Shown here piece by piece: positions 21,637 through 47,966 of a DNA stretch of 64,000 bases (positions are counted from its first letter, which is position 1; each line of letters begins with the position of its first letter). Under the pieces are notes generated by a model, which saw only the letters and a program-made list of their open reading frames with translations, did not search any database and had not been told where the DNA came from. The position numbers and the translations under genes are program-made. This DNA comes from Cytauxzoon felis (Eukaryota > Apicomplexa > Aconoidasida > Piroplasmida > Theileriidae), in NCBI GenBank assembly GCA_020283715.1, contig JAIQCW010000013.1:1-64000 (forward strand). The letters are read 5' to 3'.

Positions 21637-23244
21637 TTATGATTTTCTACGTTTTCGACTATATGCTTCATCTAACTTCTTCAATATTTGATAAAATTCT
21701 TCATCTTTTATTTCAATCCAGTTGCCTTCATTTAAAGCTTTAAAATAATGAAATCCATATGTAGAATTACTTGAAATAAATAATTGTACTAAAACTTTAT
21801 CACCAGATTCATCTAAATAAATTGTAGTATCTATACATTGTTTTGTTAAATCATTACTTTCCCAAATTTTAAATTGACCAGCTACTACTTTTGATATATA
21901 CATTTCATCCTTTGGTGTAAGTATTATACTTTTTGTACCATATGGATGATGATTATAAATTGCAAACCTTTCTAGATCTTCTTCATCTTCTATATCTAAT
22001 TTATATTCTTTTTCAACTCTTATATTTAATTTTTTATATTCATCTTCAGTTAACTCATCCCATAGATGTGTTATATATTCTAGACCTACATTATCATCAC
22101 CACCATATGCAGTAGCACCAGTATGTTGTCTTACCGGCATACCCATATCCAACATTGGTCCTTCACCAACTGAGCTAGCTGTTGGTGTTCTTTCAGGATC
22201 ATCTACAGGCGCTTCTACATCTCCACCAACAGCTCCTTCATTTACATCTCCCTCCGCTTCCATGGGATCATCTACATGCACTCCACCTGATGTTGAATCC
22301 TCCTCCTCCTCCTCCTCCTCCTCTCCACCTCCACGATCTCCGGGAGTGGCTCTACCCTTCAGGGATAGCAAATTGGAAGAGCTGTCTGCAGGACGAGGAG
22401 ATCTGTAATCAGGACGACCTCTGGTGTTGGACCTCTCTGCATGATGATAAGAGGTGGATGGACCTTCATCATCATATCCGCCTACAGCACCTTTTAATTC
22501 TTCATTTTCGGTATCATTGTCTCTTTGTGATACATCAATGATACGATCGATAGATCTTTTGACATAGTATTTTTTATACATGCTGCTACCATGTTTAATA
22601 TATAATAATAATAGATAATGTTCTTGTCTTATACAGCTTATGATTAATTTTTTACAAATTTCACCATTTATAGAATTCCATATAGTAATAGGTCCATCTA
22701 CAATTTCAGATAAAAAGAATGATGGTATAATTCTAAATGTATAGATATGATTACCGAATTCTGTAACAATTAGACTTTTAAATGCGATATAATTTGTATC
22801 ATCTTGTAAATTGAATCTTCTTTCAAATAATAATCGATTCATACCACGTGAATATTGAATATATGTAATTTGTGTCCAGTAGTTATCTTCTTTAGGTCTA
22901 CTAAAATATATATATCTAGATTCAGCACCATCAATTTCAAAATACATAAACATATCTTTACTAATATGCCTATATAATGATACAGCTAAACATCTTACAT
23001 TATTATTATTTGCTTCCCATAAAAGTTGTTGTTTATCAGTAACTCTAAGTATTATACAGCCATCTATTGGAATATAACGTAATCTAGTAGAATATTCTGT
23101 TGCATACGTTATTACAGTTATATAATCACTAGGAAATGCAACATCTAATACTATACCGATGTAATTACAATCACATTTATTATAGCCAAATATAGCTACA
23201 AATATTATAACATTTATTATGATTTTATTGATAAAATTTAACAT
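21637..23244 (-). CDS. secreted FAINT-domain protein with repeat-derived linker
   Basis: 535 residues, single exon. Residues 1-26 (MLNFINKIIINVIIFVAIFGYNKCDC) are a signal peptide. FAINT-like units occupy about 27-130, 135-235 (FFLSEIVDGPITIWNSINGE) and 355-520 (MYISKVVAGQFKIWESNDL, FHYFKALNEGNWIEI). Between the second and third units (about residues 270-345) the gene reads through a repeat copy in frame: [23 protein letters not shown], a run of Glu, TSGGVHVDDPMEAEGDVNEGA. The C-terminus is basic (SRKRRKS). Host-parasite role is unknown. The insertion falls in a linker and leaves the domains intact, which fits a tolerated or useful insertion. Confidence 0.85.
   Translation of the reverse strand: MLNFINKIIINVIIFVAIFGYNKCDCNYIGIVLDVAFPSDYITVITYATEYSTRLRYIPIDGCIILRVTDKQQLLWEANNNNVRCLAVSLYRHISKDMFMYFEIDGAESRYIYFSRPKEDNYWTQITYIQYSRGMNRLLFERRFNLQDDTNYIAFKSLIVTEFGNHIYTFRIIPSFFLSEIVDGPITIWNSINGEICKKLIISCIRQEHYLLLLYIKHGSSMYKKYYVKRSIDRIIDVSQRDNDTENEELKGAVGGYDDEGPSTSYHHAERSNTRGRPDYRSPRPADSSSNLLSLKGRATPGDRGGGEEEEEEEEDSTSGGVHVDDPMEAEGDVNEGAVGGDVEAPVDDPERTPTASSVGEGPMLDMGMPVRQHTGATAYGGDDNVGLEYITHLWDELTEDEYKKLNIRVEKEYKLDIEDEEDLERFAIYNHHPYGTKSIILTPKDEMYISKVVAGQFKIWESNDLTKQCIDTTIYLDESGDKVLVQLFISSNSTYGFHYFKALNEGNWIEIKDEEFYQILKKLDEAYSRKRRKS
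22235..22440 (-). repeat. hairpin-module repeat, copy 19 (inside FAINT coding sequence)
   Basis: Sense to the gene and fully open in frame. Core stem is the CCCT-GA-AGGG version (22355-22364 on the + strand as CCCTTCAGGG). A CTC triplet run (22300-22324) has expanded inside the copy and codes for poly-Glu. Confidence 0.85.
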
Positions 23245-23500
23245 TTTATATAATGATACAAAGTCTAAAAATTATATTACCATTTAAATGCATGATTATT
23301 ATTAGACTTAATATCATATATTATATAATGGGGATCTTAAATCTTAGACAAGTCAAATCTTAATAATCTCTGACATTATATGAAATAATTATATATCTAT
23401 ACTATCAACATCAATTATATACATGATTTTTATGAAGATAATGTGATTATATACATCATTATATGTGTCATTTATATGTATTCTATGTGATTAACATTCA
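23245..23500. other. short AT-rich intergenic spacer
   Basis: Separates two genes on the minus strand. No reading frame or repeat copy seen. Confidence 0.45.
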
Positions 23501-25173
23501 TTATATGTCATTAATCGATTTATTTAATATATAAATCGATTCATTAGTTGGTGTACCCACACAATGCCAACGGATATATCCATACTCATCTATAAGCAAT
23601 ATCGATACTAATTCACTACGATATTGATGAATACCAATCATAGCATCTATACTCAAACGCCTACAAATTGACATAAACTTATTATCCTCAATCAATGTCG
23701 ATGCCAATGACAATTTATAACGGTCATGAACCCAACCCAAACCAATACCACAAGGTGAATTCAACATCTGTATTATGATATATACAATGAATAAACACTT
23801 GTACAACAAATATTAATAACTATATTCACTTGAGGTCCGTCCTGCCGTCAGCTTCTCTATTTACGTCCCCCTCGGATTCCCGTAGATCATCCTCGGTATA
23901 ATGTCAGGATTGTGATCATGGGAAGTTTGGATTATGGGGCATTATGAGAATATAGGGTTAATTAACCCCAGTTACCACATAATAGTTAATAAACCCCATA
24001 ATTTAACAAAAATTGGAGATATAAAATTACCAATAAAAAGACATAGAGTTAAGGTTTATAACCTCAAGTGAAATACCTGGAAGCGATCCACGGGAGCTGG
24101 AAGGGGAGGTAAATAGATGAGGCCTCCACGCCTAGTGGAAGATAGGTGGATTGGACCTCGAGTGGAACAGCGAGTGGGAATAATATATGGTATAGAGTAC
24201 TGATAATAACTTACGAGTATGGTATTGATATTATGTTTGATATTATTTTTCCAACATAGTGCAGAATTGACATTTGAATGTGGTGAATTACCAGTAAATA
24301 TTATTATAATTTGTTTATTACCAATAATTTTAGTTAATAATGGTTGTGAAGGATGTGTTTTTATAGTTGGATTTAAACTCATACGATGTTTTTTACCATT
24401 AATTATTTTATAATTTGATTCATCCTCAGTAAATGATTCAACATAAATATCTGTACCAATCCTCAGTGAATATTTACGAGGTATCACCATTAAAGGATAA
24501 TTATGAGCAGATGTCATACCCGGTATATACTCCTTATACAAAATCATAGAACCCTCATTTATACGAACCAAACTATAATATATTATATCCATACAAACTA
24601 ATGTATTGAACACTCCACTCGAGGTCCAATCCAACCCTCTTAGTCCTGCCGTCAGCTCTTCCAATTACCTATCTCTAAAGAGTAGTGCCACTCCCAGAGA
24701 TCGTGGCGATGTTATCTAGGAAGATCAGAATTTGTCTACCCCTAAGAACGAAGGATGTCAACCCGGAAGAACATGATATTGTTAATGGACCTCAAGTGGA
24801 ACCCGTAGCTGATCTCAGGGAAGCGGAGGGGGAAGTAAATAGAGGAAGCTGTCTGCAAGACGAAGAGAGGATGGACCTCGGGTGGAGTGGAATAGATGAA
24901 GTATTCTTGTTGGTGAAGTTAAACGTACTTATTATTGAAGTAGTTTTTCCATCCGATTGGTGGTATTATTAGGTAATTTTTAAATGTATTGCGATCAATA
25001 TCGGTATTATAATTGGTAATTGGTAGATTTATTTCATCTTTTACTGGTAATAAAGTTTCAGGTGTAAAACTTAATTTTCCATTATCTACTCTTAATACAT
25101 CAGTACCAAAATTTCTACATTTTAATGAATTTAATAGATTATTTATCCTTGAAATATAAAATATTTTACCCAT
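23501..25173 (-). CDS. ATP10-like mitochondrial protein (tentative)
   Basis: Three exons. Exon 1 (25173-about 24933) starts MGKIFYISRINNLLNSLKCRN, a plausible mitochondrial presequence, and includes PETLLPVKDEINLP. Exon 2 (about 24603-24212) has KIIGNKQIIIIFTGNSPHSN. Exon 3 (about 23769-23501) ends ELVSILLIDEYGYIRWHCVGTP. The final pattern, hydrophobic strand then DEYGYIRW and a small turn, is like the C-terminus of ATP10, the assembly factor of the mitochondrial F1Fo ATP synthase. Alternatively it is another thioredoxin-like or AhpC/TSA-like protein. Both introns contain repeats, and the exon count is inferred by eye. The start lies 226 bp from the divergent YJU2-family gene. Confidence 0.5.
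23828..24178. repeat. hairpin-module repeat, copy 20 (intron of ATP10-like gene, split)
   Basis: Left piece 23828-23904 (CTGCCGTCAGC, then the rarer CGGATTCCCGTAGATCATCC module) and right piece 24060-24178 (GCGATCCACGGGAGCTGG, CCTCCACGCCTAGTGG). About 155 bp of unrelated AT-rich sequence replaces the core. Confidence 0.75.
24614..24888 (+). repeat. hairpin-module repeat, copy 21 (intron of ATP10-like gene)
   Basis: Full copy, antisense to host. CTCT-AA-AGAG core followed by two GAAGAAC-type units (ACCCCTAAGAAC, ACCCGGAAGAAC), then the right arm with CTGTCTGCAAGAC. Confidence 0.9.
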
Positions 25174-25399
25174 TTTAGTATAAATTTATATAATGATGGA
25201 ATATCAACTCTATAATCCACCTACACTATCTTGCCCTGATATAAGTATTAATAATTAATGGATCAAACTATATTTAAATTTAATAAAGATGGGTTAAATA
25301 AATAAATTTTATAATAATTTAAAGATATAATTTAATTGTAATATATTGTTTTAATATCTGAAAAATTATCCAATTTGATACACTTTATACTAATCGAAA

Positions 25400-26578
25400 A
25401 TGTCTACGTTGAAGGCTGCTCGTGCGGATAATTTTTATTATCCTCCAAATATGGATGATTCATGGAGTGATCAGAGGCGTCGTATGAGAAAGAAGCAGAA
25501 GAAGCCGAGAACATCTGGTATAATTATAGGTGATGATGGTGGTAAGGATATATGGAGAGCTGGTATGACTGGTGTAGTTATAAGATTTGAGATGCCATTT
25601 AAGGTAATATGTTTGGGTTGTGGAGCTTATATAGCTAAGGGTGTTAGATTTGATGCTGAAAGAAAGGCTGTAGGTAGATATTATTCTACAAAAATATATG
25701 CTTTTAGAATGTCATGTTTGAAATGTCATACTAGGATAGTAATACAAACGGATCCTGAGCATACGGATTATATATGTAAAGAGGGTGTAAGGAAGAAGAT
25801 TGAGACTAAGGATCCTAATGATCCAGATGTATTAACTGTAGGATATGATAATGATGAGAAGCAAATGAGATCATCTAATGCATTATTTATATTGGAACAA
25901 CAAGCTGAAGCTAATCTTAAAATTCAATCTTCAATACCCGTAGCTGATCTCAGGGAAGCGGAGGGACAACTAAATAAAGTAGCCACCACGGCTAGTGGCA
26001 AGACGACATCAGATGGAACATCAATTAGAAAAGAAGGTATAGAAGATAAGGAGAATATATTATCTATGTATGATGTTAATAAAAAGGAAAATTTTATTAC
26101 AAATAATTCTGAGATTGTATTAAGATCAGATAATTCGACAATATTAAAGTGTATGTTACCAGAAAAGGAATTAGATGAGGTTATAAATGAAGAGAAACGT
26201 TTAACATATTTAAAAGATTTAAGTTTTACACGTAATTCTGATGATTATTTAGCAAATTCAGCATTAAGAAGGAAATTTCGTAAAGAAAAAAAAGAATTAC
26301 AAGAAAAAGAAATAAAAGATTCAATAAAAATTAATAATTTTAATATTCCATTATTAGAAATTACAGAAGATGATAATGAATTATCTAAAAAAATTACATT
26401 TCTATCACAATCATCTAAAATTAAAACACATTTTAAACGACTTGTCAATGCTAATGGTGATATCTTCTCAAATTCATCTATTAAAACTGATAAAATCAAA
26501 CATAATACAAACAATATCAAAGAAAAACATAAAAAATTACAATTCATCAAATTTATCGAATCCAGAGCCAAAAGATAA
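25400..26578 (+). CDS. YJU2/CCDC130 (CWC16) family splicing factor
   Basis: Step I spliceosome-associated factor family. Single exon, 392 residues. The N-terminus MSTLKAARADNFYYPPN is the family signature. Next are GVVIRFEMPFKVICLGCGAYI and GVRFDAERKAVGRYYSTKIYAFRMSCLKCHTRI; the cysteine pairs CLGC and CLKC should bind zinc. QTDPEHTDYICKEGVRKKIE completes the domain by about residue 137. RFEMPF with the AERKAVG motif fits CCDC130/YJU2B (Saf4) somewhat better than CCDC94. Residues about 179-208 ([14 protein letters not shown] onwards) derive from a repeat arm. The C-terminal half is Lys/Glu-rich and low-complexity. Divergent from the ATP10-like gene. Confidence 0.88.
   Translation: MSTLKAARADNFYYPPNMDDSWSDQRRRMRKKQKKPRTSGIIIGDDGGKDIWRAGMTGVVIRFEMPFKVICLGCGAYIAKGVRFDAERKAVGRYYSTKIYAFRMSCLKCHTRIVIQTDPEHTDYICKEGVRKKIETKDPNDPDVLTVGYDNDEKQMRSSNALFILEQQAEANLKIQSSIPVADLREAEGQLNKVATTASGKTTSDGTSIRKEGIEDKENILSMYDVNKKENFITNNSEIVLRSDNSTILKCMLPEKELDEVINEEKRLTYLKDLSFTRNSDDYLANSALRRKFRKEKKELQEKEIKDSIKINNFNIPLLEITEDDNELSKKITFLSQSSKIKTHFKRLVNANGDIFSNSSIKTDKIKHNTNNIKEKHKKLQFIKFIESRAKR
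25936..26020 (+). repeat. hairpin-module repeat, copy 22 (inside YJU2-family coding sequence, right arm only)
   Basis: 85 bp of right arm in frame: GATCTCAGGGAAGCGGAGG, then CCACCACGGCTAGTGG. Sense to the gene. It follows the conserved zinc domain and lies in the variable tail. Confidence 0.85.
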
Positions 26579-26601
26579 TATCATTAAAACGAAAATTAAC
26601 T

Positions 26602-26985
26602 ACACACGAAGTCCAATTACCATCGTTCGTCGTCCTGCCGTCAGCTTCTCTATTTACATATCTCTAAAGAGTATAGCCACTCCCAGAGATCGTGGCAGTA
26701 TATACCCGGAAGAACAGGAATTCTTCCCCTAAGAACAAAGAGTGTTAACCCCTAAGAACAGGAAATGTCTACCCATAAGAACGTAGATATTCAACCCCTA
26801 AGAACAGGAAAAATCTACCCGGAGTAACAAAAGATATTAACCCGGAAGAACAGGCCTCGGATATAGTAGATGTAACTTCGAGTGGAACTGGACTACCTGT
26901 AAGCGATCTACGGGAGCTGGAAGGGGAAGTAAATAGAGAAGGCCACCACGCCTAGTGGAAAGACCTCAGGTGGAATGGCAAGTGG
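26602..26985 (+). repeat. hairpin-module repeat, copy 23 (intergenic, longest GAAGAAC run)
   Basis: Full copy. After the CTCT-AA-AGAG core come about seven units alternating ACCCGGAAGAAC and ACCCCTAAGAAC with spacers such as AGGAATTCT (26700-26850). The right arm has GCGATCTACGGGAGCTGG and CCACCACGCCTAGTGG. Confidence 0.9.
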
Positions 26986-27352
26986 AATAAATAGTATGAT
27001 TGAACCTTGGTTAGAATATGTATCTAGTCTGATGGAAGTGAAGGGTCAGGTGAACACATGATATCCTGATTGTGTGGAATATAGTTATGTTATAGATATT
27101 ATATTTTTTATTTTAATATATCGCATAATTTTAATTTGTTATATTTTATATTATAAATAAATTTATACATTTATATGAGTTAGTTAATTTGTCTAAATAT
27201 ATTATACTTTACTGATGTTTACATTAGATGACTATACTTTTGATATTTTATGTGTAATGATAGGATTCTATGTAAATTATATTATTGTATATATAAATAT
27301 GATTTAATGTTTTTTAAAATATACCTTTTACTTTTAGATATTAAAATTTGAT
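26986..27352. other. intergenic region upstream of the large WD40-like gene
   Basis: AT-rich, no gene or further repeat seen. Presumed promoter region of the gene at 27353. Confidence 0.45.
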
Positions 27353-30300
27353 ATGACTAAATGTGTAAATAATGAAAGATCAAATATTTTACAGAGACAA
27401 GCTAGTAGAATTAATTTAAAATCTAATGAAATATGTTGTTTAAATATAAATTTATTATCGCAATTACCATTTAAGAAGTTATATATTAATAATGAAGATA
27501 TTATACTTCCATTAATTTTTTTTAAAAGTAGAAATTTAATTGAGATATTACGTTGTGATACAGGTGAAACTATAGCTATAATTGATGATTGTGATGATGT
27601 AAATCATATAAAATGGTTGATTCCATCATCATTATTATTTTATAGTGGATATAGTAATTTACATCAGAAATTTGATATTATTTTATCATATAAGGATGAA
27701 ATTAGATTATTATCTAGTAGAAGTAATTATTCTAATGATTTGATTGATATAAATGATAATGAAATATATTTAGATATTGATGATGATAATAATAATGGTG
27801 ATTACACATCATCTAATTTATTAATTAAATCAATACCACTTGAAAAAGATTTAATTGGTATTACAACTTCATATATTAAAGATGAAATTTCAGGAAATGT
27901 ATCATTAGCATTATTAATTATATATATAGATGGTACAATAACAAGATGGTTCCCTTATGAAGATTTATATAAAACTATAGATAGTATTAAACCATTAAAT
28001 AAAAATATTTTAATAATTAGTGATGATAATATATTATTAAATATATCAAATTATTTATATTATAAAAAATTAAATGATATAAATTATAATGATATGTTAT
28101 ATATTGGAAATTTAATAGCTATTGGATATATTGATGGTGATATTATAATTATTGATATTAATAAAATGATTGTATTAAATATAATTAATTTACCTAATTT
28201 AATTATCAATTCATTATCTATAAATTTATTTTATAATAATTCTATAGTATTATTTATTAATAATCTTATTTTTAATATAAATAATAATGAATTAATATCA
28301 AATTTAAATATAAATGATTTAAAAAATATAAAATTATTATATCCATCTAAAGATATTTTATTAATTTCTACTAGTAATAATAAATTAATCTCAATTAATT
28401 TCAAATTTAATATAATTAAATCATATTTAGGCATTCCATATGGTAATTTATATTATTTCCATCTAAATAATTCTAATAATATACAATTTTATTGTATCTC
28501 TATAGATTATAATGGTAATCTTTTATGCTTTAATCTCTTTTATAATAAAATTTTATATAATAAAAATATAATCACAGGATATATTAATACATTCTCATCA
28601 TCACATCTACATCCAACATGCATCATCACCGGATCTAATAATGGATTATTAAACATCTTCGATATTAATCTTGTAAACACCATCCACAATCACAATCAAT
28701 CATCATATTCTCTTGCAGCTCCACCTGAGGTCCAATCCAACTCTGTTCCACTCGGCGTGGAGCCTTCTTCCAATTTGTTATCTCTAAAGAGTAGAGTCAC
28801 TCCCGGAGATCGTGGCGATTTATACCCGGAAGAACAAAGAATGTCAACCCCTAAGAACAAAGAATGTCAACCCCTAAGAACAGGAAATCTACCCGGAAGA
28901 ACAAAAAACGTCAACCCGGAAGAACAGGAATGTAATGTTGATGGACCTCAAGTGGAGACCTCAAGTGGATTACCCGCAGCTGATCTCAGGGAAGCGAAGG
29001 GGGAAATAATTAAAAGAGCTGACGGCAGGACGACCTCAGGTGGAACGGCTAGTGGAAGAGGTGAAGGTAGTGATTGGACCTCAAGTGGAGAGCTGACGGC
29101 AGGAAGTAGAGTAGGTGATGAAGAAGGTATTGATTGTACTTCGAGTGGAAATAATGTGAAAGGTATGACTTTACAAGGAGGATTTGAGAATTCTGACATT
29201 TCAGTATATACATCCGATTATAAGATAAATTTGGATATATCATCATTTTCTTCATTTACATCATTGATATCTGGTAATTTTATATTGACACGTCGTTATA
29301 AACATATGATCCATTCATCTATTATTAAAATGTTACATCATCCTAGGATTCCATGTATAGTTGCTATTGGTTGTAGTGATGGTAGTATTTATTTCTTATT
29401 TATAGAAGCTGAAAATCCAACTTTATATCATTTGATATTTATAACTAAATTAAATAAAGGTCTTAAGGATTTACAATGGTTATTAACTGATTATAATATA
29501 CTTGAAGAAATCGATTTCAAAAAAATCAAAAACTCCTTCATACAAAGAGTATGGAAAAGCGTTTATAGCGCCAAATATACCTCAACACTAATCTTCTATA
29601 ACGATAAAGAATCCAAATATACACATTTAGAAAAAAATATCAATATCCACAACCTAAATCCAAAAAACTTATCTTCATACTCCAATAAATATTCTAACTT
29701 AAGTCCTCCACCTGAGGTTACCTCTACCAAAGGTCAATCAACCTCTCTTCCTCTTGCAGAGAGCCCTCCACTCGAGGTCCAATCCAACTATGTTCCACTC
29801 GGCGTGGAGCCCTCTTCCATTTACCTCCCCGTAAACGGTAAAGCCACTCCCGGAGATCGTGGCGGTAATAAGGATGTAACATCAAGTGGACTACCCGCAG
29901 CTGATCTCTGGGAAGCGGAGGGGGAACTAAATAGAAGAGCTGACGGCAGGAATGGACCTCTAGTGGAGACTTCTAGTGTAACACCTGCAGGTGATATCAG
30001 TGAACTGGGTGAGCGGTTTAATAATGAGGGTAACATGACGGTTGAAGAGATCGCTAATAGTGGTTTGATATTGTTGAATATATTGATAATGAAATGGTAT
30101 ATTAATGATGAGATAACATTTTTTACTCAGGTTAGGGAATGTTTATGTATATGTTATTTTGATTATTTGAATTTGTATTTTTTTGTATACTTACCTACTG
30201 TTAATGACAACAATTCTAAAATTTCATTCGATTTAATATCGCCTGTATTAAAAATCCCAATTAATGGTACACCTACATCAATTGCAATATCACAAAAACA

Positions 30301-31337
30301 ATATAATCAAATATACAGGCATCAAATTACATACCATACAAAATTATACAATGTACATATTACACATACTCCATCTACGATTACTGATAACGTGGGTCGT
30401 CCTCCACCTTGTCTTCCACTCGGCGTGGAGCCTTCTTCCAATTTGTTATCTCTAAAGAGTAGAGTCACTCCCGGAGATCGTGGCGATTTATACCCGGAAG
30501 AACAAAGAATGTCAACCCCTAAGAACAAAGAATGTCAACCCCTAAGAACAGGAAATCTACCCGGAAGAACAAAAAACGTCAACCCGGAAGAACAGGAATG
30601 TAATGTTGATGGACCTCAAGTGGAGACCTCAAGTGGATTACCCGCAGCTGATCTCAGGGAAGCGAAGGGGGAAATAAATAGAGAAGCTGACGGCAGGATG
30701 GACCTCAGGTTGAACGCCGAGTGGAAGACATCAGGTGGAGAAGTCACTACAGCTACTGTAAAAGACGATATATATTTACATTTTAATGATAATGAAAAAT
30801 TATTGATCGATCATGTGGAATTATTTCATTATATCCCCCACTGTATAAATGCATTACAGGAGTTTATAGTAATTGGTACGAATAGTGGTTGGATTTATAT
30901 AACTAGTTTATTAGATTTGTATTTACAGTCATTAGAATGTAATATTGTAACATTGAAATTACCTAAATTTAAAATAGGTAATGATATTAAATTAGTTAAA
31001 TGGTCTATTTTATGGCGTAACTATGAATTAAATGTCAGATATTTATTTGGTGATGAATGTGTATGTACTGATGATTGTACTTTTATCATTGGTGTTGGAA
31101 CTGATGAAGGTATAGGAATTTATAAATTGAATGGACATACAAACAATCAAAGCTTAAGTTTACTATTTGTTAAATTCTTTAAGTGTAAGTGGACATTTTT
31201 CGATTTTATAGAACAAACACTACCAAACCATACTAAATTACTCATTGGTATGTTGAATTAATCTTAATATTCGTAACTCTTATTCAGCTAAAGATGGGGA
31301 ACTTTATTATTTTAACATCACATTAGATCATCCATAA
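27353..31337 (+). CDS. large WD40-like protein with three repeat-derived segments
   Basis: An open frame of 1302 codons runs to 31261; a 40-nt intron (GTATGT...CAG) then joins a last exon that ends AKDGELYYFNITLDHP at 31337. The fold looks like two beta-propellers: strands such as IGYIDGDIIIIDINK, TGSNNGLLNIFDINL, IGCSDGSIYFLFIE and IGTNSGWIYITSLLD recur, which is the layout of Lgl/tomosyn or similar propeller proteins, but I cannot name the family. The first 440 residues are strongly Asn/Ile-rich. Three repeat copies lie in the frame at 28720-29148, 29706-29980 and 30402-30741. They could be exonic, or introns that happen to be open: plausible donors and acceptors exist for the first (GTAAAC near 28672, CAG near 29202). 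Confidence 0.7.
28720..29148 (+). repeat. hairpin-module repeat, copy 24 (inside the large WD40-like frame)
   Basis: Sense, open in the SSNLLSLKS frame. Contains five GAAGAAC-type units. A 263-bp block (28747-29009) is identical by eye to 30415-30677 in copy 26. Confidence 0.9.
29706..29980 (+). repeat. hairpin-module repeat, copy 25 (inside the large WD40-like frame)
   Basis: Sense and open. CTCT-TGC-AGAG hairpin at 29751-29761, CCGT-AA-ACGG core, GATCTCTGGGAAGCGG right arm with CTGACGGCAGG. Distinct in modules from copies 24 and 26. Confidence 0.9.
30402..30741 (+). repeat. hairpin-module repeat, copy 26 (inside the large WD40-like frame)
   Basis: Sense and open. Shares the 263-bp identical block with copy 24 at a constant offset of 1668 bp, but its outer ends differ. 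Confidence 0.9.
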
Positions 31338-31373
31338 AAGATCAATCATTCCAATTACATCAATATTCAGCTC

Positions 31374-31676
31374 TCCACCTGAGGTTACCTATACTGTAGG
31401 TCCAACATCTATTTCCACTAGGCGTGGAGCCTTCTTCCAATTACCTATCTCTAAAGAGTAAAGCCACTCCCAGAGATCGTGGCGGAGAGAATGTAGTGAT
31501 TGGACCTCAAGTGGAACCCGCAGCTGATCTACGGGAAGCGGAGGGGGAAGTGAATAGAGAAGGCCTCCACGGCGAGTGGAAGAGTAGATGATAGTGATTG
31601 GACCTCAGGTGGAAAGCTGTCTGCAAGACGAAGAGAGGTGGGAAACAATGTAGATGGATTGGACTTGAACTGGAGA
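31374..31676 (+). repeat. hairpin-module repeat, copy 27 (intergenic)
   Basis: Full copy just after the large WD40-like gene. CCACTAGGCGTGGAGCC, CTCT-AA-AGAG core, GATCTACGGGAAGCGG and CCTCCACGGCGAGTGG, then an added CTGTCTGCAAGAC unit. Confidence 0.9.
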
Positions 31677-31710
31677 CCTGTCTAATGATAATGAAATAAA
31701 GCTCGGTAAA

Positions 31711-31885
31711 AATGTTAACCCATAAGAAAAGAAAGCATATACAGATGAACGAGAGTTATCAACCCGGAATAACAGACGCTATGCACCCGTATCTGAACCC
31801 CGTAAAGCAGAAAACGAATAATAGAGGAGGCCCCACGGTTTGTGGCCAAGTATGCACATTAGGTGGAAAAGACATTCATATAACC
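31711..31885. repeat. degenerate relic of the repeat (copy 28)
   Basis: Worn GAAGAAC-type units (AACCCATAAGAAAAG, CAACCCGGAATAACAG, ACCCCGTAAAGCAG) followed by AGAGGAGGCCCCACGG. Spacing is kept while bases have changed. Confidence 0.55.
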
Positions 31886-32266: not shown

Positions 32267-33145
32267 ATGTATTTTGTTCCACTCATATTAATCTTATCCT
32301 GTAACTGTGCTTCTATCGCATCAAGCAATAATGGAAGTTCTGATGGCAAAGTAGACCTGGATATTTATGCTAGGAATACTACAGATAAAGTTAAAGTTGA
32401 TATTAAAGAGGATGGTAACATGATAATATATAAGATTGAACCAAAGAATGGATATAAAATTGGTAGATTTGTCGATGGTGATAAAGTAATTTATGAATTA
32501 ACTCAGCAAGATACCTACAAGCATCTGGATGTTAAATGCCTTAAATCTACAGATGAGCCAATGTTGGTATCCTTGTGCTATTCACAAGGCATTTGTCGTT
32601 CAGAATTACATTATTATTTTCAACACCCTGATGGTTGGAGTGTGATAGATAAAGGTTTTGCTGATTTCCTTGTAGAAAAGATGAAAGCTTGTAAATTAAT
32701 TAAAAAGGATACTATATTTCATGAGTATAATCAACACATTGGAGAATTGGATAAACAGAGGGTTGAAGTTGATTTAACGAAGGAGGAAGTTCCATCCGGT
32801 ATTACAAGGAAAGATTGTAAAGAAGGTGATACAGATTCATGTTTATATACTGTTGATGAAAAGACTGTCATCTCTAAAGTTGTAAATGGAAGTGTTGATG
32901 TATGGGAACGGGGTGATGATTTATATGGATGTTATAAGATGAAAGTATATCACCTACCTCAAGGTGATAAGTTGCTTATATTAGCAGTAAAGGGTCCTGC
33001 AGGTATGAGATTGACCTTTTGTGGAAAGACATCCGATGGTAATTATGGTAAAATTAAAAAAGAAGAATTTGATAATAAAGCTAAAGACATACAAACGAAT
33101 CCAATAAATGTAGATTTTAAAGAATGTGTTTACTCAAGTTATTGA
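32267..33145 (+). CDS. secreted FAINT-domain (DUF529) protein
   Basis: 292 residues, single exon. MYFVPLILILSCNCASIASSN is a signal peptide. Two FAINT-like units: about 28-160 (IYKIEPKNGYKIGRFVDGD, SLCYSQGICRSELHYYF, GWSVIDKGF) and 165-275 (ISKVVNGSVDVWERGDDLYGCYKMKVYHL). A block from about 32757 to 33050 (VEVDLTKEEVPSGITRKDCKEGD to TFCGKTSDGNYG) is almost the same, in DNA and protein, as in the FAINT-hydrolase gene at 61142. It ends soon after that block, without the hydrolase. The two genes look like recent paralogues or products of gene conversion. Confidence 0.88.
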   Translation: MYFVPLILILSCNCASIASSNNGSSDGKVDLDIYARNTTDKVKVDIKEDGNMIIYKIEPKNGYKIGRFVDGDKVIYELTQQDTYKHLDVKCLKSTDEPMLVSLCYSQGICRSELHYYFQHPDGWSVIDKGFADFLVEKMKACKLIKKDTIFHEYNQHIGELDKQRVEVDLTKEEVPSGITRKDCKEGDTDSCLYTVDEKTVISKVVNGSVDVWERGDDLYGCYKMKVYHLPQGDKLLILAVKGPAGMRLTFCGKTSDGNYGKIKKEEFDNKAKDIQTNPINVDFKECVYSSY

Positions 33146-34023: not shown

Positions 34024-34087
34024 TAAATAAGGATTGAATTCGATTATTTATGGATTTAAATTAAATAAATTAATTAAATGAAATTTA

Positions 34088-40700: not shown

Positions 40701-42332
40701 AGTCATCATTGATGAATAGTGATTATATATCAAAGGTATCTATAATATCGGCACGTGTACCTATAGCAAAGGTAAGATTATATCAAAAAAAATACCATCT
40801 ATAAATAAATTTTATTATACAGTTATATAATAGTAATGGAGATAATTTATGTGACGTCTCTATTAATAATTCTATCGCATTAGATAATACAAGTTACGTC
40901 AAATGTATGACATCCCTAGATTATCGGGTCATCAAACTAGGAAGATTCATTAAATATTGGGCCACAAGACGAAAAATCAATAATCGCCATGAAGGTAAAA
41001 ATAATAACCACAACAAGGAACATTATAACCGAAATGTTGTCTACTCCACCCGAGGTCCATCTTTTCCATTGCATGGAGCTCTTCTATTTACTTCCCCCTC
41101 CGCTTCCCTGAAATCAGCTACGGGTATTCCACTTCCACTCGAGGTTACATCCTCACTACCTTTTTCAGTGCCACGATCTCCGGGAGTGGCTCTACTCTTT
41201 AGAGATAGGTAATTGGAAGAGCTGACGGCAGGACGAAGAGAGGTGGAGAAATAGTGATTGGACCTACGGTATAGTCTGTAACCTTTGTGTGATAGGAATT
41301 TGGTTGAATTACTTTAGTGTATGTTATTCTTATGTATTTATAGGTACAATGAGTTCATATACATTAATTCTTCAATTATTTTATTTTTTACAAAATCGTA
41401 ATCCTCCCATATTACCAACATTCAAGTGAGTATAAAAAATTAATTCTAATATACATTATCAACAATAGAGAAATTGAAACCGATACAAATGATAAAAATA
41501 ATCTTAATTTCATCACCAATATAAGGTATATTATATTAACCAATCCTATTATCCAAACTCATCCACCGAAGGTCTTCCACTTGCCGTTCCACTAGATGTC
41601 CAGTAAACCTATATTCCACTCGCCGTGGAGGCTCTCCACCCGAGGTTACCACCACCTCTCCTTGTCTTGCAGACAGCTCTTCTATTTACCTATCTCTAAA
41701 GAGTAGAGCCACTCCCGGAGATCGTGGCGAAGATGAAAGTGGTGAGGATGTAACCCCAAGTGGACCCGTAGCTGATCTCAGGGAAGCGAAGGGGGAGGTA
41801 AATAGAGAAGCTGACGGCAGGATGGACCTCGAGTGGAGAGCTCTCTGCAAGACAAGGAGAGGTGGATGCTACCTCATTGGATGTATATTCGGTTATATAT
41901 ATATATTATAGTGAGATAATGAGGAGGTGTCCTTATATTGGTACGAATAAGGAATCATTGGTATCATTATTAATTGATTTTTTTCGTTTTTATGGTGATT
42001 GTAGATTTCAGGGTGGATATTTGGGTTCTACGATTGATGTATATACTAATGAGTTATTAGAGAATAATCTTGGTGTTCTTGTTATTAAATGTCCATTATC
42101 TGGTAAAAATGTAAATCCATTTACTATAAGGATGTGGCAATCGATTTATAGTGAATTTAGGAGATTTAAAGAATTAATTGAAGTTAAAACACCAATTTAT
42201 ATAATTTGTCAATCAAATCAATATTCACCATTAGAAGATGAGTTACATAAAATGAAATTTAATTCAAATGAAATATTCAATATTTTAATACAAAACTCCA
42301 AGAAGAAAAATGGAAAAATATCAAATGAATGA
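37766..42332 (+). CDS. Cid1/TUTase-type nucleotidyltransferase (non-canonical poly(A)/poly(U) polymerase)
   Basis: Adds A or U residues to RNA 3' ends. Exon 1 starts at 37766 with a 165-residue low-similarity N-terminus. Further exons: EYFNRQQHDIYQQICNEISK, the long LYEKQFNWELKILHNHYL exon (38701-about 38919), then catalytic FGSCENGLW joined to VQGSDIDMCLVIPNC (the GS plus DxD motif split by an intron at about 38920-38957). After a 1.66-kb intron come VESSLMNSDYISKV, RVPIAKLYNSNGDNLCDVSINNS (third Asp), SLDYRVIKLGRFIKYWATRRKINN, GTMSSYTLILQLFYFLQ (PAP-associated domain) and, last, EIMRRCPYIGTNKESLVSLLIDFFRFYG to the stop at 42332. All catalytic residues are present. Four introns hold repeats, and the largest also holds foreign gene-like sequence. 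Substrate base cannot be told from sequence. Confidence 0.85.
38430..38609 (+). repeat. hairpin-module repeat, copy 33 (nucleotidyltransferase intron)
   Basis: Compact sense copy with CCGT-AA-ACGG core and almost no spacer after CCACTCCCAGAGATCGTGG. Arms CTGCCGTCAGC and GCTGACGGCAG pair. Confidence 0.9.
39037..39747 (+). CDS. intron-embedded membrane-protein gene fragment A (Tpr/FAINT-like)
   Basis: Lies on the sense strand inside the nucleotidyltransferase intron. The frame reads MVGLIFILFLWIWKNLFTTS (membrane segment), a 130-residue extracellular-type region with GKYKKMSNTGLTFKNGENTL, YVFYFGAMDIPIIICAKTDG and WEDITNTTTT, and a C-terminal membrane segment (ELGKLTEGLIGMCICIMISI). The same order and many of the same residues appear in fragment C at 55315-56082 (YVYYFGDRPIIICVEYES, WKDITKT, LILFCIGIMISI), so they are paralogues. 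The region upstream has no room for its own promoter separate from host exons, and the start is unsure. It may be a nested gene or a decayed copy. It resembles the Theileria subtelomeric Tpr-type families in layout only. Confidence 0.55.
   Translation: MVGLIFILFLWIWKNLFTTSILWTIDQVQQMQLETGGNDTLGTADGNNAENVTIQIDKMGDYTSGTSGDENVKVFLTKDTREKGYTRYIHKVQGAAGKYKKMSNTGLTFKNGENTLNGISVTGNVEAVYVFYFGAMDIPIIICAKTDGGTNPYKYFRKNYPFLKWGDGWEDITNTTTTAAAGQIRNNQPPDSSNAELITELGKLTEGLIGMCICIMISIIFGSVVIVPKIMKKIST
39776..40242 (+). pseudogene. second intron-embedded fragment (FAINT-like remains)
   Basis: Same intron. A frame at 39776-40117 has NYNGVLWILREGRKVIWEDN, which looks like part of a FAINT unit. Another frame then takes over from about 40117 (TETATALTKAQIDALEWDDDP to FNKVADIVRSIFVA, stop at about 40242). 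The switch of frame between related parts suggests a broken gene. Confidence 0.45.
40291..40604 (+). repeat. hairpin-module repeat, copy 34 (nucleotidyltransferase intron)
   Basis: Sense copy directly downstream of the gene fragments. Begins with an ACCCGGAAGAAC unit; CTCT-AA-AGAG core; right arm has both GCTGACGGCAG and CTGTCTGCAAGAC. Confidence 0.88.
41044..41274 (-). repeat. hairpin-module repeat, copy 35 (nucleotidyltransferase intron)
   Basis: Antisense. CCAT-TGC-ATGG hairpin at 41066-41076, GCCACGATCTCCGGGAGTGGC core, right arm GCTGACGGCAGG. Confidence 0.9.
41562..41870 (+). repeat. hairpin-module repeat, copy 36 (nucleotidyltransferase intron)
   Basis: Sense. Very module-rich left arm (CCACTTGCCG, CCACTCGCCGTGG, CTTGCAGACAGC), CTCT-AA-AGAG core, right arm GATCTCAGGGAAGCG, GCTGACGGCAG and CTCTCTGCAAGAC. 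Confidence 0.9.
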
Positions 42333-42458
42333 GATTGTGATATATATAATTTCAATCTCACCCTAATTATTAAACACTATAAAGCATACCTACTTCAAAA
42401 TATCACATATAAATTAATCTAATACCTCAATCCCTAATATTATCATAATATATATTCC

Positions 42459-42746
42459 TTCCACCTGAGGTCCAATCTACCTCTTCTCTACTCGCCTCCA
42501 CCTGAGGTCCAATCCAACTCATTTCGTCTTGCAGACAGCTTCTCTATTTACTTCCCCTTCCAGCTCCCAGAGATCGCTTCCAGGTTCCACCTGAGGTCCA
42601 ATCACTAACTTCAGCCACGATCTCCGGGAGTGGCTTTACTCTTTAGAGATAGGTAATTGGATGAAGCCTCCACGGCGAGTGGAAGAAAGTCGGATTGGAC
42701 CTCAGGTGGAGAAGCTCCATGCAATGGAAAAGATGTACTTCAGTTG
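42459..42746 (-). repeat. hairpin-module repeat, copy 37 (intergenic)
   Basis: Full copy between converging genes. GCCACGATCTCCGGGAGTGGC, CTCTTTAGAGATAGG, CCTCCACGGCGAGTGG and a CCAT-TGC-ATGG hairpin. Confidence 0.9.
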
Positions 42747-42803
42747 TAATTATATTATAGTTTTAATATATGATTATTTACTATATAGATTGAGTTTATA
42801 TGA

Positions 42804-44938
42804 TTAGTATCCGTTATTGATGATTTCTTGTGCTAATATTTCTGCGATTGTGATACAATCTTGTTCTGCTGAATTGACTTCAAGTTTTAAATTTTTTAAA
42901 TTATCATGTAGATCATCAGATTTTGTCATATCCTAATGAATGATTTATAAATTAAATTTTAGATGAACATACTATATTCATTAATAGATTAATTGATCTG
43001 GTATATAATTCCTATTTATAAATATAAAAACAAGTATAGAGTATATATAAATGTATTATGAGATTTAAACATACATCTGTATCTTCAATAATTGTATTAC
43101 CTAATATAATTTCTTGTATAATTTGTGTTTCAGTTAACCAATTTGCTAATTTACTAAATAATATAAATCGTTGTGTAATATCTTCACATAATTCTTGTAA
43201 ATATTTTTTACTATCATTTGTTAAATTACCAATCTGATTAAAAAAAATTTTTTTTTATATATAAATAAAAACAATTTAATATACCATTGATAATTTACTA
43301 ATAAAATCTTGTGGTTTAAATTCATCCCATTTAATACCATTTATATTACCATTATAATATACAAATGTTGGTGTAGATCTTGTTATAGGACATCCTTTAG
43401 GAAAATCATTTAATTCAATATTTAATCTTTTAATACGTAATGGATGATTAATTTCAATTAAATGTTTATTAATAGAATTAATAAATGGTCTTAATAAAAA
43501 ACATAAAAAACAATTATCTTCATACATTTGTAATATAATAGGTGATGATTTTGATGAATTATTAATAACCTATAATAATATTAATGAATTATTATTCATA
43601 TAAATATATTACTTACTCTATCATTAAAATTATTAAATGTAACATATTCAGGTAATAAATCTATTTGTTCAATTTCATTTACATCTTGTGATTTAGGTTT
43701 AAAAAAATTTTTTATTTCATTAATAAATTCATTAATCTTATTATTATCATTTAAATCTAATCCATCATAAAATTTCTTTCTCATACCTTTATAAAACATT
43801 AATTTAAAACCATTATTATTATTATTACCCTCTCTATAATTATTATTAATTAAATTATAAATGATAATTATAAATATACTTTATAGTATAATATATATTC
43901 AATTCTTTAGGTATTATACCCTTTAATATCTCAATTTTTTCTCTCGATATATTCTTTATCTCATTAGATGATAATAATAATACAATTAAATCATCAGATG
44001 AATCAAATAATTCCTCATCAATCTAAATATTAATATAATTCAATAATAAATATACTAACCATCTTCAATGGAAATGTATTAAAATATAATATATAATCAT
44101 ACTTCAACATAAAATACAATATAAACAATAATAATACTAATCCAAATAATATAATTTTATATCTATTATTTCTATTCGAACCAGGCCTATCAAATCCAAC
44201 AACACCTTCTCCACTACCTGAGGTCATCCTGCCGTAAGCTCCTACACCGAGGTCCAATCCAACTTTTCTTCCTCTTGCAGAGAGCTCTTCTACACCTGAG
44301 GTTAGTCCTGCAGACAGCTCTTCTAATTTGCTATCCCTAAAGGGTAGAGCCACTCCCGGAGATCGTGGCGGTGATGAAGGTAGTGATGGATCATCCATCA
44401 TGGGAATGGTGGAAGATGGTGCTAAGGATGTGTTGGATGTAACCTCAAGTGGAGAACCCGCAGCTGATCTCAGGGAAGTGGAGGGGGAAGTAAATAGAGA
44501 AGCTGACGGCAGGACCTCAAGTGGAGAAGCTGTATGCAAGACGACATCAAGTGGAACGCCTAGTGGAGAGACCTCGAGTGGAACAGCGATTGGAAGAGTA
44601 TGTATATTCGACAAGAACTCATGTGTAAGAGTGTATGAAAAGGTTGAGGTAAATTCTACGGGTTGAATACATGTAGCTGATTTAATGGATCTGGATAGAC
44701 ATGTAGATAGAAATGGCCATCTGCAAGATGATATAAACTTTTCACAGATACTTTTATTATGAATATTACATTCATATCCTATATTTAATGCTCTTTGACA
44801 TCCATATATTGTTCCTGTATTTAATGCTTGGACATGATGTATATACTTTTTATTTAAAACTACATTAAAACTAAAATTATTAAATTTAAAATTATCATAA
44901 ATATTTATTAAATTTATACATTTTTTATTATACAGCAT
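42804..44938 (-). CDS. membrane-anchored thioredoxin-fold protein (unnamed)
   Basis: Several exons on the minus strand. The N-terminal part (44938-about 44600) starts MLYNKKCINLINIYDNFKF and has a Cys-containing region (YECNIHNKSICEKFISSC). After a repeat comes a membrane segment (YKIILFGLVLLLFILYFML), then EELFDSSDDLIVLLLSSNEI, GLDLNDNNKINEFINEI and a thioredoxin-like domain: MYEDNCFLCFLLRPFINSIN with a CFLC pair, RIKRLNIELND and CPITRSTPTFVYYNG, whose TP would be the cis-proline turn. The C-terminus is helical (SKLANWLTETQIIQEII) and ends at 42804. Likely organelle or ER resident. The repeat at 44208-44596 is open in the antisense frame, so I cannot tell if it is spliced; AATAATAG at about 44165 is a possible acceptor. 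Confidence 0.55.
44208..44596 (+). repeat. hairpin-module repeat, copy 38 (in thioredoxin-fold gene; long variant)
   Basis: Antisense to the gene. Core stem is the CCCT-AA-AGGG version (44335-44344). Carries the extra 70-bp module (44377-44450) with the GATGGA-TCA-TCCATC palindrome shared with copies 42 and 53. Confidence 0.88.
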
Positions 44939-45107
44939 TATTAAATTTCATAATATAAATTTCTAATTTTATAATATAGTAGAATCCATCGATGTGTCAT
45001 GAGTATATATATAAAATTTGCCCTCTATATTATTAGAAATTAATTATGTGAATATTACACATAATTGTAATAATATAATTTCATGTATATTTAAATGGCG
45101 TATAATA

Positions 45108-47966
45108 ATGCCAAGAGTATTTTTACCACAAATTTTGTGGCATAGCAAAGATAATAAAAGATGTGATCGTGTCTATTCAATTGATTTTCAACCAAATACA
45201 GATAATGATTTAGATAATAATTTAAAATCAAATAAAACTAAAATCCTTAAACTTGCTACTGGTGGAGCAGATGAATTTGTTCATATTTGGCAAATTACTA
45301 TACACGACAACGCGCCGCAATATACACATTCGCTTAATAAGGATACAGATTTCGAACAGCCACTCTCTATTAAAATACTTGCAAGATTAATAGGTCATAT
45401 AGGTGAAGTTAATTGTGTAAGATGGTCACATTCTGGTAAAGTACTCGCTACTGGTGGTGAAGGTATGTTGATGGAATAATATATATGTATTCATTAATTC
45501 GTAACATTTTATTATCAATAAATTTTCAGATCGTTGCATATTTCTATGGGTACGTGATTTAAAAGGTGAAAATGGCAATTTAAATGATGATAATCTCCAA
45601 GATTATGATGAATATTGGACAAAGACACATTACTTTAGGTAAGTACTTGATTTTAATTGAAATTATCTATATTAATTTTATTAGATTATCTAATGTTGTA
45701 AATAGCATAAGCTGGTGCCCAAATGATCGTACATTAGCTGTGTCTACAGAAGATGGACACATATCTCTTGTAGATACACATGTTGAAAATACGGGAAAGG
45801 TCAGATATTTCGATGGGCATACAAATATAGCACAAGGTGTAGCATTGGATCCAAAGAACGAAATTTTGGCATCATTAGGTTCTGATCAATGGTATGTTGG
45901 CTACTATTCAAATAAAAATTAAAAATTCCAGCCTAAGGATATGGAAAAGGAGGAATCAAAAGAGTTGGAAAAGCATACTTGTACTTAAAGCTGCTAGGGA
46001 ACGAGGTGATTTAATAGAGGTATGTAGTGATTTATATATTTTCCCCATAACATCGAGTATTTGTTTGATAAATGGGGATTTTTGGGTGTTTATATAATTT
46101 CTGGGGGTAGAATAAGATTTGATTTAATATTTGTGCCATTAACACTAGGCCTATCCGCCATTTGGTGGACCATAGATATCGGAATGGATATTCACAAAAC
46201 GAAAACTGCAAAAAGTACTGATTTTGAACGTGGTTATGGTACTAAGCCAGCTGAAGCTGAAGAAGATGATAATAAGGGTATTCTAAAATTATTTAGTAAC
46301 AATTATGAAACTAATACTGCTAATGCTAAAGATGTCGGCCACGTTGGTGATTGGTCACCGATTTTTATGCTTGCCATTTCGTTGGGTACAGTCTGCGCAT
46401 TTCCATTTGCCCTTGAAATTCCTTCAATTATTTTTCATTTCAATTCATTTATAGGATACGGAAGAGAATCAATTAGAGATTAAACGTCATGGAAGATGTG
46501 TATTTATGTCCGAAGAACTGCGTACATTTTTTCGTAGGCTTGATTGGTCACCAGATGGACGATTTCTTGTTACACCATCTGGTATAAGGCATAATAAACC
46601 AAATACTGAGGATAATGATATGAATAATAATAATAATGGATTAAAGGATCAATTAAATAATAATGAATCTATAGAACAATCTACTATTAATACTACTAAT
46701 CCCACATGTAATCAATCGGTAGTATATACTTTATACATTTTCTATAGAAAATTAATAAATTATGGCATTCCAATGTTAACACATACATCACCAACCGGAC
46801 CATTTGTTGTTATTAAATTTAACCCAATATATTTAACAATGAAGGATAAAAAATTAGCACTATTTAATAAATTATTTCAAGTGGGTAAAAATACTAAAAT
46901 GAACCCTATAAAAAAGAAGGTTGAACGTGTACATCATGTAGTATTAACGAATAAGATACAATCATATTTTAATCAACATGTAGATGCAGATGCCAATAAT
47001 ATAAATGATACAGTCACTAATAATACCAATCCCAATGAACCTCCTATAAAAAATGAAATTGATGATAAAAATAATGAGCAATCATCCACATCTGTTCCAA
47101 CAGCACTTGAAGTTACAACCACCTCTCCTGGTCTTGCCGTCAGCTCTCCACCTGAGGTTAGTCCTGCCGTCAGCTCTTCCAATTACCTATCTCTAAAGAG
47201 TGAAGCCACTCCCGGAGATCGCGGCGCAGATGGTAATAAGGATGTAACCTCAAGTGGAAGTGGTCTACCTGGAAGCGATCCACGGGAGCTGGAAGGGGAA
47301 GTAAATAAAGAAGCTGACGGCAGGACTGGACCTCAAGTGGAGAGTTCTCTGCAAGAGGAAGGTAAGTTTGTATCCTCTAGTGGGACACCTACTGGTAGAG
47401 TGGGATGGATTTCAGGTGAGACGTCGAGTGGAAAAGAGAGTGTAGAGATAAAGGATGAGGATGGAACGCCAATTGACAATTTGATGTATGATACATCTCA
47501 GGATACTGAGATTATTAAGAAAATGGATTCTATGAATGACAACGAAGCAGATAATGAAAGAATAGATGATGATTCATCAGGTGAACATGTTAAGGAAGAA
47601 CGAGGTGGTTATAATTTAAGGGTTAGGAGAGAAAAGGTTAAGTTTTTTGATAATAGTGTACAAGTTAAACGTGTTATGAAGCCCAGAGTTAAAAAAGTTA
47701 AAGAAATTAAAGAAGAGGAAGAAGAATATGAATCTGATATAGAAGAAGGTACAATTCCAAGATTTATATTTGCTGCCGGTACATTGGATGGTTCATTATG
47801 CTTTTATGATACGCTCGAAAATTCTGGACCAATCGCTGTACTTAAAAATTTACATTTTTGTGCAATCACAGATATCGCATGGTCACAAGATGGATACGTA
47901 TGCGCATCATCTTCATCAGATGGATATATAACTTTTGTAATCTTCAATAAAAGAGAACTATCTTGA
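45108..47966 (+). CDS. CHAF1B: chromatin assembly factor 1 subunit B (CAF-1 p60)
   Basis: WD40 subunit of CAF-1, which deposits H3-H4 behind the replication fork. I choose the start at 45108 (MPRVFLPQILWHSKD) because family members begin a few residues before the IxWH motif; an in-frame upstream ATG at 45018 is less likely. Exons: 45108-about 45467, then DRCIFLWVRDLKG, LSNVVNSISWCPNDRTLAVS, LRIWKRRNQKSWKS (to 46018), and after an intron with foreign sequence DTEENQLEIKRHGRCVFMSEE, LDWSPDGRFLVTPSG. The last blade is RFIFAAGTLDGSLCFYDTLEN and ITDIAWSQDGYVCASSSSDGYITFV. Between blades a 250-residue low-complexity linker contains repeat-derived sequence (47095-47431) and basic KVKEIKEEEEEYESD. 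Divergent from the thioredoxin-fold gene, 170 bp apart. Confidence 0.9.
46019..46454 (+). pseudogene. intron-embedded membrane-protein fragment B
   Basis: Fills a CHAF1B intron on the sense strand. The reading frame gives FDLIFVPLTLGLSAIWWTIDI, an acidic loop with AKSTDFERGYGTKPAEAEEDD, and WSPIFMLAISLGTVCAFPFAL. Two membrane segments and the ILWTID/AIWWTID motif are shared in style with fragment A. It lacks the FYFG-type domain, so it looks like a piece of a larger gene family. Splice sites (GTATGT at 46019, ATAG at about 46454) fit removal from CHAF1B. Confidence 0.5.
47095..47431 (+). repeat. hairpin-module repeat, copy 39 (inside CHAF1B coding sequence)
   Basis: Sense and open ([19 protein letters not shown], then GSDPRELEGEVNKEADGRT). 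CTCT-AA-AGAG core; the right arm is the GGAAGCGATCCACGGGAGC version. No good splice sites flank it, so it is probably translated. Confidence 0.9.

Follow-up and report, generated by a model that had tools for sequence, protein, structure and literature searches.

The nuclear genome of Cytauxzoon felis, an apicomplexan parasite of cats, carries a modular palindromic repeat in thousands of copies, and exonic copies lie almost entirely in one orientation and one reading frame. The repeat was first noticed in a 64-kb window (positions 1 to 64,000, forward strand, of contig JAIQCW010000013.1, assembly GCA_020283715.1). It is probably a selfish, non-autonomous hairpin element, and by analogy it appears to be a eukaryotic nuclear counterpart of the in-frame palindromic DNA that the accessible literature otherwise describes for Rickettsia. 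No prior description of this family was found in the literature searched, whose coverage mostly omitted subscription papers. The assembly examined comprises 8.62 Mb in 181 contigs. Unless stated otherwise, counts refer to a 314-kb sample made of the window and 250 kb from seven contigs (3.6% of the genome), which is non-random as some contigs were picked from the first hit list. Left (B) and right (C) arms were detected with profiles built from the window copies. Exon calls are based on open reading frames (ORFs), the whole genome not being annotated, and comparison species were used at the protein level only.

The profiles matched 46 B and 50 C arms in the window (96 matches, one weak B overlapping a C) and 150 B and 199 C arms in the sample, where they make up 128 two-armed copies, 71 with C only and 22 with B only. 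Genome-wide there are 2,071 exact matches to a 21-nt core, 1,016 on one strand and 1,055 on the other, against 0 for the reversed control; as 107 of them fall within the sample, extrapolation yields about 4,300 elements in total. The 46 exonic elements in the sample scale to about 890 genome-wide by cores or about 1,260 by bases. B-to-C spans with one cassette per side occupy 9.7% of the sample; these spans measure 99-453 bp in the window and exceed 150 bp in 12 of 40 copies there and in 38 of 128 in the sample. The plan is a modular palindrome in which the inverted arms B and C, each composed of small hairpins, flank a variable spacer. Reading inward, a dodecamer (TCCACCTGAGGT and variants) is followed by an end cassette, TTCTAATTACC, hairpin H, a GCCAC/GTGGC hairpin and the spacer, beyond which lie arm C and a cassette, both inverted. 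The end cassette is itself a mini-hairpin of several types, and the same types recur, inverted, at both ends of the element. Matching of left and right cassettes within a copy was considered and rejected (18 of 119 the same, against 24 with a standard deviation of 4 when shuffled); the cassettes therefore exchange freely. Long copies additionally hold, between their arms, an extra spacer module of CCCGGAAGAACA/CCCCTAAGAACA-like units, seen in frame at about 28818-28940 and 30486-30608.

The conserved feature of the repeat is its hairpin fold, maintained at the expense of the peptide, because the stems covary, in exons too, and thereby change the peptide. The H stem exists in five fully complementary versions (96 CTCT/AGAG, 28 CCGT/ACGG, 10 CCCT/AGGG, 2 CCCA/TGGG and 2 CCCC/GGGG) and is perfect in 138 of 149 copies, compared with a shuffled mean of 70 (standard deviation 4); arms too close to a stretch end were excluded here, which kept 149 of the 150 B arms. 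Likewise, the C stem occurs in six versions and is perfect in 174 of 199 arms against 79 (standard deviation 5) when shuffled. As these counts track subfamilies, the independent events are the stem types and not the copies. Among exonic copies alone, 30 of 33 H stems and 41 of 45 C stems are perfect, compared with 10 and 20 after shuffling, and the stem versions present there alter the encoded amino acids (LSLKS, LPVNG, LSLKG, LSQMG). The GCCAC/GTGGC stem is near-invariant and so uninformative on pairing (114 of 149, shuffled 110). Copy 39 folds with z-scores of -5.26 as RNA and -5.36 as DNA.

The preliminary description of the window placed six copies (19, 22, 24, 25, 26 and 39) within the ORFs of four genes, all sense and in one shared frame. 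The profiles and the ORF map confirm these positions, orientations and frames (Table 1), but the six are not independent, since copies 24 and 26, both in one gene, are identical over a run of 264 bp. The same frame prevails across the sample. With a minimum of 20 non-element codons to either side, the B arms found in open frames number 33 in one sense frame, 0 in the other sense frames and 2 in antisense, and the C arms 44, 1 and 2, respectively. In the strict version, with at least 100 host codons per side, 23 of 23 B and 31 of 31 C arms use the one sense frame. Of three antisense ORFs behind the looser counts, two are shadows within longer sense ORFs. The third, 44033-44947 (minus strand), had been overlooked when exonic copies were described as uniformly sense; it is open antisense for 305 codons through a two-armed copy. 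Its coding potential is weak (+1.0 and +6.2), it has a hydrophobic segment towards its end and it has no match in Pfam. It is a candidate for the one remaining antisense exonic case, its reality being uncertain. A looser exon definition gave 49 sense and 7 antisense cases, the seven comprising this ORF, one case in a PRP19 intron and a remainder that was judged by eye to be ORF tails or ORFs made up mainly of element. The equal spread of exonic copies over orientations and frames that had been named as a refutation was not seen in the sample.

Many of the genes concerned are recognizable. Element-bearing ORFs with above-threshold families include CWC16, CHAF1B-like, RIO kinase, Noc2, ATP11, cyclophilin and PheRS-beta, while many others have no family match or a sub-threshold one only. 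A PDB search with two ORFs whose Vps54_N and ATR/FAT matches are sub-threshold gave nothing at E 0.1, and for the 1,302-aa ORF hosting copies 24-26, 7,997 homologue candidates were scored with none at E 0.001 and no Pfam match. In the cyclophilin ORF, the PDB match is confined to the part before its elements. Coding potential is positive on both sides of the element in most sense ORFs; in several it is near zero or negative upstream, a region where codon use is distorted by strand skew.

Most of the orientation and frame bias is explained by stop codons, but not all of it. Among the 95 non-exonic two-armed copies, from which the antisense candidate was set aside along with the exonic copies, 42 have the sense frame open, while the other sense frames are open 4 times and antisense frames 25 times. 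Given that the other sense frames are nearly always closed, stops fix the sense frame. The claim that this frame is free of stops nearly holds for single arms (140 of 149 B and 168 of 198 C open) and fails end to end, where only those 42 of 95 copies are open, partly because the arms are mutually out of frame in 42 of 95. The frames of the two arms agree in 31 of 32 exonic copies compared with 53 of 95 others (p 2.5e-7). Antisense frames were said usually to stop, which is true of two-armed copies and not of single right arms, as 58 non-exonic single right arms have 108 open antisense frames against 42 sense frames. Antisense accounts for 24-35% of the open frames of non-exonic two-armed copies, whereas 1 of 34 exonic elements with a left arm is antisense (p 0.001 to 8e-6), or 1 of 25 when counted by ORF (p 0.009 to 3e-4). 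For single right arms, antisense makes up 70-75% of open frames, yet of the 4 ORFs whose only elements are single arms, 0 have an antisense copy (p 0.008). One right-arm subfamily has a consensus one base shorter, so that its frame meets a TAA, and 1 of its 21 members is exonic against 44 of the 178 other right arms (p 0.05); its depletion from exons is only suggestive. Exonic and other copies differ little in divergence from their subfamily consensus (7.5% and 6.6% for B, 8.7% and 7.5% for C). Selection on the peptide was rejected by codon position, as exonic copies lack a third-position excess (modules with more than 12 mismatches from consensus, or in stem groups below 8, were excluded); the sole hint of it is fewer second-position changes in exonic B arms (p 0.02).

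For one gene, there is evidence that the element is present in transcripts too. The cf76 gene, which encodes a vaccine and diagnostic antigen, holds two copies, both sense and in the same frame. The locus was recognized from the cf76 ORF primer of Tarigo (2013), which has one exact genome-wide match, and all 8 distinct cf76 primers of that paper match it exactly, which identifies the genome as that of C. felis. According to the accessible text of that report, complementary DNA (cDNA) fragments of 720, 828 and 675 bp were obtained and their clones sequenced, and a single exon makes up the gene (PMC3748084). The genomic distances between the primers equal these three lengths and the fragments span both elements; therefore neither element is spliced, with the reservation that the published sizes could be design values. 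For these two copies, the cDNA lengths contradict splicing-out, the other outcome proposed as a refutation. The same text reports a 30-bp tandem-repeat polymorphism among isolates, and high antibody levels, for the C-terminal part of cf76 (PMC3748084), and this part contains an element. A near-tandem repeat of period 33, the sole one found in that fragment (periods 20-59, runs of at least 18), closes the second element. It is near but not equal to the published unit, a link between the two being no more than possible.

Protein comparisons also speak for read-through. CWC16 has orthologues in both Theileria and Babesia; in 11 of 11 orthologues aligned (the best 11 of 467 matches), a run of 21 columns inside the element is empty, and conserved blocks flank the insert within one uninterrupted ORF. 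In PheRS-beta, a stretch of 138 residues that consists mostly of one two-armed copy plus a right arm lies, within one ORF, between conserved blocks that are 13 residues apart in 7dpi_B. In CHAF1B, 374 residues stand in place of 42, with the element being only part of them.

Host DNA around the elements shows a local strand asymmetry. Once elements, their margins and module-like strings are masked, the flanking DNA, read in the orientation of the element, has a GC skew of about -0.3 to its left and about +0.3 to its right, approaching zero past 300-400 bp; because the element is palindromic, this left/right pattern hardly depends on its orientation. Fourfold sites 80-200 bp away have a skew of -0.86 on the left and +0.69 on the right, independent of gene direction (codons less than 80 bp from an element, masked or not fourfold were left out). 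An origin in leftover element pieces was rejected, as the fourfold skew is much the same without self-similar DNA. Within 200 bp of 32 exonic mid-ORF copies, the counts are C112 G13 upstream (-0.79) and C12 G55 downstream (+0.64), and by 300-400 bp the values are down to -0.25 and +0.09. Further downstream, at 400-1000 bp, the skew is negative (-0.34, -0.62), where an effect of the next element is expected and was not separated. These mid-ORF copies, together with ORF ends more than 1 kb from any element (only -0.15 and +0.05), led us to reject an exon-end effect. A skew switch above 0.6 in absolute value is found at 35% of 218 elements and at 4% of 1,481 points more than 1 kb from any element, with medians of 0.46 and 0.18. 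No more than nine copies are 2 kb away from any other, and their skew is weaker; among two-armed copies, the most and least diverged thirds show equal skew. G and T are enriched on the strand whose 5'-to-3' direction points away from the element, resembling bacterial leading strands and human non-template strands as presented in the available part of PMC10030826. The switch is strong enough to flip third-codon-position usage inside a single exon (8935-9789; Table 1).

Some copies have near-identical cores at otherwise unrelated sites. Copies 24 and 26 match over 315 bp at 97% identity with unrelated flanks, and a second pair matches over 309 bp at 97% in the ORF with the sub-threshold Vps54 match. 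These are the longest near-identical pairs in the sample and each lies within a single ORF. Because near-identical cores at unrelated sites both carry skewed flanks, we infer that old copies were homogenized by conversion and not freshly inserted. An enzyme that might move the element was sought with DDE_3, MULE, hAT, Helitron and RVT_1 profiles. DDE_3 and MULE had no match in the genome while prokaryotic controls were detected, and RVT_1 matched one ORF only (L035, G000:C56:73693-74436), which we take to be telomerase-like by its motifs. With ends set at the outer dodecamers and copies without either dodecamer excluded, 0 of 73 copies have a target-site duplication of at least 4 nt; one duplication of 3 nt (0.3 expected) and one of 2 nt (3.4 expected) were counted, and as the ends are modular the test is not final.

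On the basis of these results, copies would be inserted irrespective of orientation and phase, after which purifying selection would remove from exons those that introduce a stop, shift the frame or damage the host gene in another way; antisense copies would be removed for a further reason, where our guesses are splice-like signals or a worse peptide. The element would need its hairpins and not its peptide, with the hairpins as a possible seat of recurrent local DNA breakage and restarted synthesis. Such synthesis would run outward for about 300 bp and leave the strand asymmetry behind. Repair from other copies, that is, ectopic gene conversion, would then homogenize copies, swap end cassettes and spread the element without an evident transposase. 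More tentatively, and short of an even chance in our estimation, the element may thus spread free of transposase as a site that focuses outward DNA synthesis and conversion, altering codon choice over about 300 bp per side at thousands of sites and supplying translated segments at perhaps 1,000 places in the proteome, including essential enzymes.

A number of points weigh against this interpretation. Frame matching in non-exonic copies exceeds the expected third (p 9e-6), which a pure filter does not explain; unrecognized exonic copies or coding-compatible source copies may account for the excess. What excludes antisense copies beyond stops is a guess only, and outward synthesis and conversion as the mode of spread rest on inference. 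The asymmetry is opposite to that from plain deamination of resected 3' overhangs, and its direction also fits bidirectional transcription. The hAT and Helitron searches were uninformative, their positive controls being silent too. RNA evidence is confined to cf76, for which 2,166 nt lie between the full-length primers here compared with 2,172 bp and 723 aa in the accessible text of PMC3748084, and the PheRS-beta insert could still hold an intron.

Other explanations account for parts of the data. Stop codons might cause the bias by themselves, with nothing else excluding antisense copies; the near-absence of other open sense frames means that sense copies must use this one, but the antisense deficits for left-arm elements and single-arm ORFs make this unlikely. 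It seems still less probable that the repeat is a classical miniature inverted-repeat transposable element (MITE) mobilized by a DNA transposase acting in trans. Its inverted arms, its many copies and its lack of coding capacity are as expected for one, but the missing duplications, the modular ends of variable reach and the silence of the DDE_3 and MULE profiles are not. That the asymmetry predates insertion, with elements choosing skew switches already in place, for example at origins or bidirectional start sites, would be in line with the many processes that make switches and with the 4% of distant points that have one; we regard it as decidedly improbable given how much commoner and stronger switches are at elements, and given that exonic elements in mid-ORF are skewed and element-distant ORF ends are not.

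Two further alternatives concern the protein. If the repeat were a protein module kept for its peptide, as a source of antigen diversity or a linker, and spread by exon shuffling, the constant frame, the excess of frame-matched arms outside exons (53 of 95) and the element in the reported high-antibody region of cf76 would follow readily. This is very unlikely, however, as exonic copies diverge like others without a third-position excess, stem covariation alters amino acids, and most copies lie outside long ORFs in both orientations. Least probable by far is that exonic copies are introns, or introners with their own splice sites, that never reach protein: the arms do hold splice-like strings by eye, and some copies lie within introns, yet both cf76 elements are in cDNA fragments as long as the genomic DNA, from a gene reported as a single exon, PRP19 introns 3 and 4 are spliced outside their elements, and spliced copies would have no need of the frame match seen in 31 of 32 exonic ones. 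A selfish hairpin repeat filtered by its host genes remains our preferred reading.

Outside exons, where two ORFs of one strand are separated by under 800 bp (gaps that mix introns and tandem intergenic DNA), the orientation of copies is even, with 51 sense and 48 antisense at a 60-codon ORF floor and 25 and 21 at a 100-codon floor; in gaps of 800-2000 bp, the numbers are 17 and 7, or 25 and 28. Elements are scarcer in divergent than in convergent gaps (6 and 33, or 17 and 37 with the stricter floor). The earlier statement that intronic copies occur in both orientations is borne out by the PRP19 introns, which hold sense copies and one antisense right arm. The borders of introns 3 and 4, read by eye, lie in ordinary DNA outside the elements, and an introner origin was rejected for both as the elements do not provide the splice sites.

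Table 1. Copies of the repeat, their host ORFs and related features. Positions refer to the window except for cf76, which is given by locus.
Feature	Position	Strand	Description
Two-armed copy, PRP19 intron 4	8715..8837	-	Sense; splice sites outside element
PRP19 exon 4	8935..9789	-	Between two elements; third positions C0/G16 in the opening 70 codons, C20/G2 in the closing 70
Right arm, PRP19 intron 3	9887..9928	-	Sense
Right arm, PRP19 intron 3	10221..10263	+	Antisense
FAINT ORF hosting copy 19	21637..23244	-	535 aa; Pfam FAINT 1.8e-15
Copy 19	22240..22380	-	Two-armed (B+C), sense in FAINT-domain ORF
CWC16/Saf4-Yju2 ORF hosting copy 22	25400..26578	+	392 aa; Pfam PF04502 3e-42
Copy 22	25936..25977	+	Right arm (C) only, sense in CWC16/Yju2-family ORF
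ORF hosting copies 24-26	27353..31261	+	1,302 aa, family not assigned
Copy 24	28766..29014	+	Two-armed, extra spacer module, sense
Copy 25	29813..29936	+	Two-armed, sense
Copy 26	30434..30682	+	Two-armed, sense; 264 bp identical to copy 24, flanks differ
Antisense candidate copy	44319..44498	+	Two-armed, opposite to ORF 44033-44947 (-)
CHAF1B/HIR1-like beta-propeller ORF hosting copy 39	46506..47966	+	Pfam PF24105 5.5e-25; PDB 7y5k_B
Copy 39	47175..47308	+	Two-armed, sense in CHAF1B-like WD40 ORF, between two conserved propeller blocks
cf76	L010:6543-8708		Vaccine/diagnostic antigen gene holding two elements

The resemblance to the Rickettsia palindromic elements suggested in the preliminary description is supported as a functional one: the repeat works like them, being palindromic with exonic copies in one stop-free sense frame, and no membership of a sequence family is claimed. 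To our knowledge, the hosts of the Rickettsia elements have no introns, and functional RNAs count among the sites of those elements. The accessible parts of two reports describe those elements as short palindromes that lie in intergenic DNA and in frame within genes, to which they add a peptide while leaving the ORF intact (PMC10969869, PMC4316617). The present repeat has the palindrome and the fold, agrees only roughly with their hairpin size of about 100-150 nt, is inserted in frame into protein genes without ending the ORF, and is also sited between ORFs and in introns. The Rickettsia elements differ in being bacterial and in number, with 44 insertions reported in R. conorii against thousands of copies here; the accessible parts of those reports do not describe local strand asymmetry or exchangeable end cassettes for them. 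The palindromic repeats of Volvox carteri organelles are likewise short selfish hairpins, with loops of 3-5 nt, but the available account places them in organelles outside ORFs and judges nuclear copies to be inert transfers. The window, by comparison, holds nuclear genes such as PRP19, CWC16 and CHAF1B. Yeast mitochondrial GC clusters and fungal double-hairpin elements are small mobile hairpins like the C. felis repeat; they are mitochondrial and are set beside it by description only. MITEs are non-autonomous, with inverted repeats and high copy number. The arms here are inverted versions of one plan and so resemble terminal inverted repeats, but the repeat has no target-site duplication and no transposase in the families testable. 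Introners are also many short repeats in protist genes, from which this element differs in lying outside the splice sites in the two introns examined.

The repeat offers a view of how selfish DNA turns into protein sequence, which can be tested by ordinary RNA sequencing and proteomics in this parasite, and its strand asymmetry is a readout of a hairpin-centred process. Codon usage in C. felis should be read as selection or expression only when the distance to the nearest element is known. As cf76 carries two elements, antibodies against element peptides could in principle recognize other parasite proteins. Elsewhere in the window, the N-termini of ORFs 3508-4599, 32267-33145 and 61142-63010 are alike by eye.

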